64,000 nt of DNA, from NCBI GenBank assembly GCA_024403615.1, contig JAKSRM010000003.1:62001-126000 (forward strand), written 5' to 3'. This DNA is from Lachnospiraceae bacterium (GTDB lineage Bacteria > Bacillota > Clostridia > Lachnospirales > Lachnospiraceae). Positions 28,168 to 54,662 of the stretch are shown here, piece after piece. Both the position numbers and the translations under genes were made by a program. Under the pieces are notes generated by a model. That model was not told the DNA's origin and made no database searches. It saw nothing but the letters and a program-made list of their open reading frames with translations. Every line of letters starts with the position of its first letter. Position 1 is the first letter of the stretch.

Positions 28168-28479
28168 GACGAAATATGTCACTTGTGTACCAGACATTTT
28201 TTTCTTCGCTCAAATATGACACTTATGTACCGTATTTCCTCTCGCCTTGATCAAATATCACACTTATGTACCTACTCTCCCTCACGAGCCGACAAAATAT
28301 ATCACTTGTGTACCGTACTTCCTCTCACACCGACAAAATATCTCACTTATGTACCAAATTCTAGCCATTCATTGGTACATAATCGTAATATTTTCTCTTT
28401 TCTAATTTTTCGTTGGTACATAGCCGTAATATTTTGTTTCTCTTAATTTGGGATTGGTACATAAGTGTTATTTTTTGTT
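28168..28479. repeat. Palindromic repeat array 1 (variant core)
   Basis: Eight 24-nt units. Forward units: 28168-28191, 28208-28231, 28249-28272, 28291-28314, 28332-28355. Reverse units: 28374-28397, 28415-28438, 28456-28479. The period is 40-42 bases in the forward half and exactly 41 in the reverse half. The forward unit reads CAAAATAT, two variable bases, CACTT(A/G)TGTACC. Forward spacers are pyrimidine-rich (for example TACTCTCCCTCACGAGCC). It fills the gap between the terminator of the UroD-like gene and the nuclease-like gene; the last unit lies inside that gene's final codons. Forward and reverse units can pair, giving a long segmented hairpin. Same frame as arrays 2 and 3 but a different core. 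Not a recognised element. Confidence 0.92.
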
Positions 28480-29474
28480 CCAAATAATTCTTTATATACC
28501 TCTTCTCGTTTCATTCGATACTTTTTAAGGGTTGCTCTTTCACTTTTTCCATTCAGTTGTTTTTTTATTGACATAAACAGTTCATCCAAACGGTCCAGAG
28601 ACAATAAATCTTTTGATACAATCGGAAAAACTTTATAATCCGATATTGTTAACGATCGATATTTTATTTTATCGTATGCAAACTGTTCTGCGTTTCCATG
28701 AGCTAGATCACTATCATATTCCAATACGATTTTTTCTTTTGGCCAAACCAAATCGCAATTGCTACTCTCTCTATTTAGCAACATTTTTCCTGCATTCGAA
28801 TGATAGATATCATAATTGAGCTTTGGAAATTTCATTCCATACCCACCTTGATATTTCGGCAAACAACTAACTGTAGCCAACTTGCTTTCAATAGGAGAAC
28901 GAGAATTATCTTGAACAAATTTTGCAGCCAGCAAAGCTTTTTTATGATGTTTCATATTATTTGTATTAGAAATATACTCTGCTAACAATTTGCTAGTAAG
29001 TATAGGATCTCTTTGGTATTGTCCAAACGAAGAGTTTCTATCTTTAACATACATAGCGCAAAGATTTATCCCAATCTCCACCAACTGGCAAAAAGAGTAA
29101 TCTTTTGCTGCACATAAAAAACAATATTCCGGGCTTGCTATCAAAACTTCATACTGTGATAAAGCCGGATACAGGCGTGTGTCCATCTTGATAAAACTAT
29201 CAGTAGAGAAATGCCTAGGCCGGATATATTTTTTAAAGTTTGCTTCATTTCTTCGATTTTGATTTGACGGAACCATAAAAGATATCGGTTGAGTAACATT
29301 CAAATTCAATGATATTTCTTTTGCTATTATATTTAAATCTGGCACCGCAAAATAGGCGGGAAGACCCTGAAGTTCCCGGTTTTGATAAGAATATTTTTCT
29401 GTATTTTCCCAATTTGTTCCATCCAGCCATAATTCGAGAGCAGTTGGATACGTTATCACAATAATTTCTGTCAT
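28443..29474 (-). CDS. Nuclease-like protein with C-terminal Vsr/DUF559-type endonuclease fold
   Basis: 343 residues, noticeably more AT-rich than its neighbours. The N-terminal two-thirds has no motif I can name, apart from SPEYCFL and QLVEIGINLC blocks that resemble large families of uncharacterised proteins in Coriobacteriia (recollection, not searched). The C-terminal part (about 225-310) has SPIESKLA, GGYGMKFPKLNYDI, CDLVWPKEKIVLEYDSDLAH and DKIKYRSL, ending in a YKVFPI strand. This is the order E...D-E-x-D...H...D...K seen in Vsr/DUF559-type PD-(D/E)XK-like nucleases. The last codons (TKNNTYVPIPN) are written by a unit of repeat array 1. Probably horizontally acquired; a DNA-acting role is inferred, with no partner gene seen. 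Confidence 0.6.
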   Translation of the reverse strand: MTEIIVITYPTALELWLDGTNWENTEKYSYQNRELQGLPAYFAVPDLNIIAKEISLNLNVTQPISFMVPSNQNRRNEANFKKYIRPRHFSTDSFIKMDTRLYPALSQYEVLIASPEYCFLCAAKDYSFCQLVEIGINLCAMYVKDRNSSFGQYQRDPILTSKLLAEYISNTNNMKHHKKALLAAKFVQDNSRSPIESKLATVSCLPKYQGGYGMKFPKLNYDIYHSNAGKMLLNRESSNCDLVWPKEKIVLEYDSDLAHGNAEQFAYDKIKYRSLTISDYKVFPIVSKDLLSLDRLDELFMSIKKQLNGKSERATLKKYRMKREEVYKELFGTKNNTYVPIPN

Positions 29475-39199: not shown

Positions 39200-39276
39200 T
39201 CTTGTGGACTTTAACCTGCATAGACCTTTTCTATGTCCATGGAATAATATGAAATCTCATCCCTTTGTGTCTGTTT

Positions 39277-39561
39277 TTCAAAATAGTTGAGATATGTACT
39301 ATTGTTTTTCAGCCTATCTGCAAAATAATTGAGATATGTACCGTCTCATTTTGTCTGTTTTGCAATATAGTTGAGATATGTACAATTCCAATCCTGTTTT
39401 CCTGCGAAAACATCGAGATATGTACAATAAACACTCTAATTATTATCTAAAATAGGTACATATCTCGACATTTTCGCTATTACACTTTTCTGAGCCGTAC
39501 ATATCTCAACTTTTTCGTCTTGACGTCTTATTGAGACCGTACATATCTCTACTTTTTATGC
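39277..39561. repeat. Palindromic repeat array 2
   Basis: Seven 24-nt units. Forward: 39277-39300, 39319-39342, 39361-39384, 39403-39426 (period exactly 42). Reverse: 39455-39478, 39496-39519, 39538-39561 (41, 42). The forward unit is TGCAAAATA, two or three variable bases, then TTGAGATATGTAC; unit 4 and reverse unit 5 share the variant TCGAGATATGTAC/GTACATATCTCGA, a covariation between partners across the centre. The 28-base centre is AT-rich. It lies between the start of the esterase gene and the terminator of a carboxylesterase gene. The 42-base period equals 14 codons, so spurious frames give repeated peptides (IVEICT). No gene is supported in 39185-39641. Confidence 0.93.
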
Positions 39562-42695: not shown

Positions 42696-42793
42696 AATAC
42701 CCTCCTTAATTTCAAAAATGAAATATCTTTATTTGGTTATATGATACCTTGAAATCTGTGAAATTTCAAATTTACTTTTCAAGATCTTGCTAT

Positions 42794-42826
42794 AAAAAAA
42801 GCCGCCCTTAGAAAAAAGGACGGCTG
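42794..42826 (-). terminator. Terminator of the YbaK gene
   Basis: Minus-strand stem AGCCGTCCTT/AAGGGCGGCT (one T-G pair), then seven T. Confidence 0.88.
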
Positions 42827-42839
42827 TAAATCAAAAGCG

Positions 42840-43319
42840 TTATTTTGTTAAATCTGCGTAGGTTACGGGAATTACTTTTCCCAGGTCATCGGGCTCGATT
42901 TCCACTTGATAACCGATTTTTCCGGCGCTGAACAGAATGGTCTCCTGCAAGATCGCAGTCTCATCTAAAAAAGTTGGAAACAGTTTTTTCATGCCAATGG
43001 GAGAGCAGCCACCATGAACATAACCCGTAAGAGGAAGCAGTTCCTTTTGGGTAATCATGGCGATGTTCTTTTCGCCACAAGCATTGGCTGCTTTCTTTAA
43101 ATCCAATTCCTCGGCCACCGGAATAATAAAAACGTAATGCTCTTTGCTTTTTCCTACGGTGACTAAGGTTTTAAATACCCGTTCTTCCTTTACACCCATA
43201 AGCTTTGCCATCTCCACACCAGACAAAGCTTCCTTCAAATCAAAGGCATAATGTTTGTACTCTACTTTATTTTGATCCAACAGTCGCATAACGTTGGTTT
43301 TCTCTTCACTGGTCTTCAT
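42840..43319 (-). CDS. ybaK: YbaK/EbsC family aminoacyl-tRNA deacylase (Cys-tRNA(Pro) type)
   Basis: The ATG at 43319 has AAGGAG six bases upstream and gives 159 residues, the family's usual size. A frame from 43364 would add 15 residues, but its ATG sits almost on a TATAAC -10-like box. Family markers: VFKTLVTVGKSKEHYVFIIP with the conserved Lys, and GYVHGGCSPIGMKKLFPTFLD. These enzymes hydrolyse cysteine mischarged onto tRNA(Pro). The gene is monocistronic. Confidence 0.9.
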   Translation of the reverse strand: MKTSEEKTNVMRLLDQNKVEYKHYAFDLKEALSGVEMAKLMGVKEERVFKTLVTVGKSKEHYVFIIPVAEELDLKKAANACGEKNIAMITQKELLPLTGYVHGGCSPIGMKKLFPTFLDETAILQETILFSAGKIGYQVEIEPDDLGKVIPVTYADLTK

Positions 43320-54188: not shown

Positions 54189-54354
54189 AACCTCTTCTTC
54201 TAACAGTCTTTATCTCTTCAAATACTATTATTCAGGAGTTGTTTCAATATGTCCCATATAGTACACTTTTTTATTATTTTATACTATAATACTCCTAAAA
54301 ATCAACCTGCTTCCTTGAAAACATCCTCTCATCCAATTTGTATTTCCAGTTTTC

Positions 54355-54608
54355 CGCAAAATCATTGAGATATGTACTGCTACTTTTCCTCTTCTCTGCG
54401 AAATTGTTGAGATATGTACACCTACTCTTTCTCTTTTCTGCGAAATTGTTGAGATATGTACTCTTTTTTTAACTTTTCACGTTGCAATGGCTTCAAAATA
54501 TGTACATATCTCAACTTTCTTGCAGCAAAATACTTTTGAGTGCGTACATATCTCAACTTTTTTGCAATAAGAGACTTTTGAGGTCGTACATATCTCAACT
54601 TTTTTCGT
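54355..54608. repeat. Palindromic repeat array 3
   Basis: Six 24-nt units. Forward: 54355-54378, 54397-54420, 54439-54462. Reverse: 54501-54524, 54543-54566, 54585-54608. The period is exactly 42 throughout. The forward unit is TGCGAAATTG then TTGAGATATGTAC; reverse units read GTACATATCTCAACTTTTTT. Forward spacers are pyrimidine-only or nearly so (CCTACTCTTTCTCTTTTC). Reverse spacers repeat ACTTTTGAG just before CGTAC. The centre is 38 bases. The array sits between the start of the Crp-type regulator gene and the terminator of an acetyltransferase gene, as array 2 sits between an esterase start and a terminator. The rest of 54189-54746 shows an AT-rich upstream region and no supported gene. 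Confidence 0.93.
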
Positions 54609-54662
54609 TTTTTTCTACATTCATAGCCCACAGAGCCTTTATATTTCCAAAAAAGTAGCATC

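Follow-up and report, generated by a model that had tools for sequence, protein, structure and literature searches.

The closest described counterpart of the locus considered here is REPIN-RAYT (REPtron), in which REP doublets occur with a TnpA_REP tyrosine transposase (PMC3116915, PMC8266576). Three features characterise it: an inverted extragenic sequence lies next to the gene of the enzyme dedicated to it, further copies of that sequence in the genome are non-autonomous, and enzyme and element diverge together. Three further groups are relevant on the protein side, namely the EDxHD endonucleases of the I-Bth0305I/Vsr type, TnsA of Tn7, and the antitoxins AbiEi and Rv2827c. The ends of Tn7 carry several phased transposase sites. 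AbiEi and Rv2827c bind 23-bp inverted repeats, two of which are bound cooperatively by AbiEi (PMC7319586).

The present locus lies in a window, by which we mean the whole 64,000-nucleotide stretch analysed (G000:C23:62001-126000, G000 being the label of the source genome), and combines a nuclease-like gene with an adjoining array of short sites. It shares with REPIN-RAYT all three features named above, and in its Lachnospiraceae genus dispersed extragenic inverted doublets occur with an enzyme gene beside one of them. There are also significant differences. The REPIN-RAYT enzyme is an HUH Y1 protein of the IS200/IS605 type, whereas the present protein is PD-(D/E)XK and Vsr-like; REPINs form single-stranded hairpins, whereas the units here are phased double-stranded sites of ~24 bp, which the genus has in groups of about 4-9 per array; and REPINs reach hundreds of copies, against about 20 array loci here. 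No unit word among the array families that were scored contains the GTAG/CGTC tag of REPIN-RAYT. The best reading is that the system works like REPIN-RAYT and is unrelated to it. It appears to be a very small, semi-mobile genetic system of a kind not described before, and nothing on this family with arrays was found in the open-access literature.

The window gene, its protein and its array

The gene (28443..29474, minus strand) encodes a protein of 343 aa with an AbiEi-CTD-like part and a PD-(D/E)XK (Vsr/I-Bth0305I-like) part. A first, sequence-only reading had called it more AT-rich than its surroundings and alone between unrelated genes, and both statements hold: its GC content is 33.5%, lower than the 42-43% of both neighbouring genes and the 41.7% of the window, a single one of 245 segments of its size is more AT-rich, and the flanking ORFs are of metabolic type and unrelated to it. 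The ORF is free-standing in an intergenic region, outside any intron or intein, and no toxin-type partner gene was seen among the adjacent ORFs. Comparison with the orthologue in the related genome G012 gave a dN/dS of 0.066/0.53 = 0.12, and the protein is under strong purifying selection.

The full-protein structure model has a pLDDT of 89. In the nuclease domain (aa 190-310; 28545..28907, minus strand), the modelled residues resemble I-Bth0305I (Z 11.4), Vsr (Z 9.1) and TnsA (Z 6.5), and E196, D241, E252, H259 and D268 are invariant across 24 of 24 aligned family members. With this modelled catalytic fold and these acidic and histidine residues, the protein is predicted to belong to the Vsr/EDxHD endonuclease superfamily. 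The C-terminal domain had been described as Vsr/DUF559-like; the Vsr half of that description agrees with the modelled fold, and DUF559 (PF04480) gave weak matches in 14 of 25 family members (best E 3.5e-4) and none in the window protein, which taken alone matched no Pfam or PADLOC family. A homing endonuclease model matched two family members weakly, and the profile matches of the family members include no transposase profile. Unlike the I-Bth0305I/Vsr-type enzymes, this one is not encoded within an intron or intein, has an AbiEi-like domain at its N terminus and stands beside phased arrays; unlike TnsA, it has no TnsB (DDE) or TnsC gene beside its own, and its sites do not lie at the ends of a cargo element.

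The N-terminal domain (aa 1-188; 28911..29474, minus strand), modelled alone with a pLDDT of 91, has a fold like the C-terminal domain of the AbiEi antitoxin. Its model matches AbiEi (6y8q_A; Z 7.1, 123 residues) and Rv2827c (Z 4.7), the former match being moderate, as a Z of 7.1 is within the range of common fold arrangements. The alignment covers residues 64-195 of 6y8q, which is the part without the wHTH (winged helix). An AbiE type IV toxin-antitoxin system consists of AbiEi with its wHTH and an adjacent AbiEii gene, whereas here both the winged helix and the AbiEii toxin partner are absent, a nuclease domain is added and the sites are dispersed.

The window array (28168-28479) comprises eight units of ~24 nt, five forward and then three reverse, 40-42 nt apart. 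The forward block (28168..28355, plus strand; sites at 28168, 28208, 28249, 28291 and 28332) has the consensus GACAAAATATCTCACTTATGTACC, and the reverse block (28371..28479, minus strand; sites at 28371, 28412 and 28453) faces it. AAATATNTCACTTNTGTACC has seven matches in the window against 0.09 expected, and none of 100 shuffles scored as high. The gene-proximal site (28453..28479, minus strand) spans the codons for the C-terminal TKNNTYVP, with IPN and the stop codon at or beyond the unit end, so that the last codons are indeed array-encoded, as had been noticed at the outset. The orthologous array in G012 has seven units against the eight in G000.

Linkage of the gene family to arrays in two phyla

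Three family copies are present in G000, and homologues occur in 11 of the 14 genomes of the Lachnospiraceae genus (1-6 copies each), the congeners being ruminant and horse gut MAGs, several of them named Parasporobacterium. None was found in 149 other sampled genera of Lachnospiraceae. A distant relative in Enterorhabdus sp. P55 pointed to Eggerthellaceae, a family in which homologues, up to 16 per genome, were found in 77 of 99 genomes. The family spans gut bacteria of two phyla, the genomes compared being mostly MAGs. A phage origin was rejected, as no relatives were found in viral contigs and PHROG matches were only stray; a defence system was rejected as well, the window protein being without a PADLOC match.

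In the Lachnospiraceae genus, an inverted pair was detected in 32 of 53 near-gene segments and in 14 of 360 control segments (p=6e-23), and 25 of the 27 genes have such a pair on at least one side. A strict tandem-array detector scored 7/22 downstream and 5/23 upstream segments, compared with 4/253 controls; these near/far tests were designed after the arrays had been seen. Most congeneric homologues adjoin an array with a period of 39-43 and a word of its own, mostly on the 3' side, and no tandem array was found near paralogue L033. Eggerthellaceae served as a second phylum, with an inverted-pair criterion set after viewing loci, and gave 31 of 73 near-gene segments against 5 of 140 controls (p=2e-12). 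The association between gene family and arrays, on which the sequence-only reading depended, is very strong in both groups.

The form of the arrays in Eggerthellaceae is that of long inverted pairs, usually 110-170 nt apart, which adjoin 26 of 37 genes; tandem arrays of 39-43 nt were found at 0 of 34 loci. The arms often open with a common TGGC/TGCC...AA outer half, a pattern picked after the arms had been inspected: the first four bases are shared by 18 of 28 arms (8.3 expected), and the four bases together with the A tract by 13 of 28 (1.9 expected), with 0/2000 shuffles as high in either case. Several Lachnospiraceae units open in a similar way, with TGC(R)AAA. L097 and L101 have a pair on each side of the gene with a common word. 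At L097 (genome G239), the two pairs (1149-1310 and 2511-2650) have the same 27-bp arms around different insides, and the arms of the upstream pair are nearly unchanged at the orthologous locus L101. Dispersed cognate copies did not turn up in the Eggerthellaceae sample, a search for the G239 word over 400 kb yielding one weak candidate pair only. At two loci with homologous, partly syntenic genes (L107, about 1320-1500; L110, about 2400-2580), the pair words differ and both arms have changed alike.

The overlap of gene and array seen in the window recurs in part. The array reaches with its first unit into the final codons of L031, L034 and L043 and into the stop codon of L032, while other homologues stop before the first array unit. 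To the question whether homologues also end in array-encoded residues, the answer is yes for the G012 orthologue and for L043, which has a different word; in L032 the overlap is at the stop codon, and in other homologues there is none. The proposal that the gene inserted into a pre-existing array, where its tail was lost or acquired, is not supported, since the G012 orthologue has the same overlap, and since L043 and L032, with quite different words, also overlap their first units.

Dispersed arrays and their history

The core word GAGATATGTAC has 93 exact matches in G000 (49 forward, 44 reverse; control 0) at about 20 places, this count being approximate because the MAG assembly breaks at arrays and some end arrays may be identical. 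Paired GAGATATGTAC units were found in none of 13 congeners. One array of this type touches the 3' end of paralogue L032 (G000 C4:16483-17463), and two lie in the window: one at 39268..39557, of the site type cognate to L032, with four forward and three reverse units and a central distance of 41, and one at 54343..54620, with three of each and a central distance of 51. The G001 word GAAATTACGCTTGTGACCA likewise has 31 matches at several loci, in G001 only, and adjoins its gene L043; the word of L035 (G003) forms 40-nt arrays at several loci, in G003 only. These three site types are dispersed only in the genome with the neighbouring gene. Arrays of the window-gene word adjoin the orthologous genes of both G000 and G012, and further arrays of this type occur in G012 (C2, C4, C79 and C116) and once more in G000 (about C23:17700). 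Array positions in G000 bear no single relation to the neighbouring genes. The contig ends C3, C4, C8, C9, C10 and C16 of this genome fall at arrays.

Among 104 G000 units, the core GAGATATGTAC and an upstream AAA are nearly invariant, core positions nearly all carrying 1.6-2.0 bits, whereas spacer identity between arrays is 29%, against 27% when shuffled, and 51% between neighbours. Same-strand spacing is 42 nt, or four turns, and the central distance is 21, 31, 41 or 51-52 in all 16 of the 16 G000 arrays having both strands (phase concentration R 0.975; 0/20000 random sets as high); in G001 the period is 41 and the central gap 23 in 8/8 scored arrays. Because each central gap amounts to a whole number of helical turns, the arrays resemble sites at which proteins bind double-stranded DNA, and this quantisation points to proteins lying on one face of double-stranded DNA. 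The best spacer identity between arrays is 0.70, compared with a null of 0.61 (sd 0.007), a few of the closest pairs being at contig ends, where they may represent one array assembled twice. Array C4:7369 has the same centre as the gene-linked array C4:17495. Overall, the G000 arrays appear to be related through copying. A CRISPR array was rejected, as the repeats converge from two strands and neighbouring spacers are related.

Five array loci were compared between G000 and G012, and at each of them only one of the two genomes has the array. G012 is without the G000 arrays at window 39268, where it holds an unrelated gene, at window 54365, the syntenic place of the 54343..54620 array, at C4:7369, and at C4:16359-17807, a place at which it lacks gene L032 along with the array. 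The last case fits the earlier suggestion that gene and array moved together, at a paralogous locus rather than that of the window gene itself. In the reverse case (window about 42790-42850; L167 5700-6040), G012 has an array at C79:5795-5987, and downstream of the same gene G000 has a transcription terminator instead. With MITEs and insertion sequences the arrays share inverted outermost sites and loci that are empty in a relative; no clean-ended insertion or target-site duplication was found at an intergenic divergence (dS 0.53) too high for the ends to be read. In this two-genome comparison, presence and absence could also reflect loss.

A probable nuclease system with cognate arrays, and competing explanations

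We regard as rather probable a two-part system, in which a nuclease is accompanied by cognate, dispersed and probably mobile site arrays. One part would be a protein, single-copy per specificity, whose N-terminal domain is AbiEi-CTD-like and whose nuclease is of the PD-(D/E)XK type and Vsr/I-Bth0305I-like; the other would be its cognate ~24-bp site. Next to the gene, this site takes the form of inverted pairs or of tandem arrays that converge and are helically phased, and in the Lachnospiraceae genus it also occurs in intergenic positions elsewhere. Phasing and constraint suggest cooperative binding of the protein to its sites, along a single face of the double-stranded DNA. The nuclease might then nick or cut bound arrays or the DNA next to them; through repair or strand transfer, arrays, occasionally together with the gene, could be copied or inserted elsewhere. 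Protein and site specificity would diverge together, which would therefore give each gene a private array family. The sequence-only reading had proposed that the repeat is the target of the protein or its mobility signal, and this appears the better supported of its branches because the gene-array association is very strong. The chances are about even that these elements form a new class of miniature mobile DNA, present in two phyla, in which phased arrays are copied through the cuts of a dedicated Vsr-like nuclease and specificities co-evolve into many private pairs per genome.

The strict phasing of the sites and their far better conservation than the spacers, which are usual for functional binding arrays, might instead suggest a domesticated regulator or chromosome organiser, binding phased arrays for a host purpose such as gene control or DNA looping, with a nuclease fold that is a relic and does not move the arrays. 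The intergenic location of the arrays and the strong purifying selection on the protein would agree with this. However, the catalytic residues are invariant in 24/24 aligned members, words private to one genome and loci that differ between G000 and G012 would be odd for a host function, and array positions have no single relation to neighbouring genes; we consider this explanation unlikely, although of appreciable probability. The presence or absence of gene and arrays together, and the resemblance of the N-terminal domain to an antitoxin domain, could also be understood if the nuclease is potentially toxic and the arrays titrate it or protect against it, gene and arrays being retained jointly in the manner of restriction or toxin-antitoxin pairs. 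Such an addiction or decoy function has a small probability, as there is no adjacent partner gene and the spread to about 20 loci would by itself be left unexplained.

Two further explanations concern the arrays alone. As RNA-level elements, that is, bidirectional terminators or stabilisers of mRNA 3' ends, they would lie near the gene by chance or through an intergenic preference; the inverted repeats of the G000 types, which have A/T tracts, and the G012 array in place of a G000 terminator hairpin are compatible with this. Yet central gaps of whole DNA turns are not needed by RNA hairpins, and termination as the main function is disfavoured because of this helical quantisation; other site words are without T tracts, and enrichment by one gene family in two phyla is not accounted for, so that we give this possibility very little weight. 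Phased multiple end-sites are usual for transposases of the Mu/Tn7/IS21 type, and the arrays might accordingly be ends or remnants of an unrelated transposon, with its transposase elsewhere and the nuclease gene as mere cargo. This is just as improbable, given that the site word tracks the adjacent nuclease paralogue in several genomes and that no other gene lies consistently between or beside arrays.

If the two-part system is real, the REPIN/RAYT lifestyle, in which small extragenic sequences are sustained by a dedicated single-copy enzyme, would have a second solution unrelated to the first. Its many natural protein-site pairs, with long and differing words, would be of direct use in studying how some 24 bp are recognised by a Vsr-like protein, and contig-breaking intergenic repeats of gut genomes would be explained as well. 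Finally, it should be mentioned that another dispersed repeat, of about 57-77 nt, has many copies in G012 (C177:4674, C90:19343, C35:3281, C165:5313, C152:7487, C151:4540 and C127:5536) and one in G000 (C4:7217-7294, L173), where it lies between a tRNA and an array.
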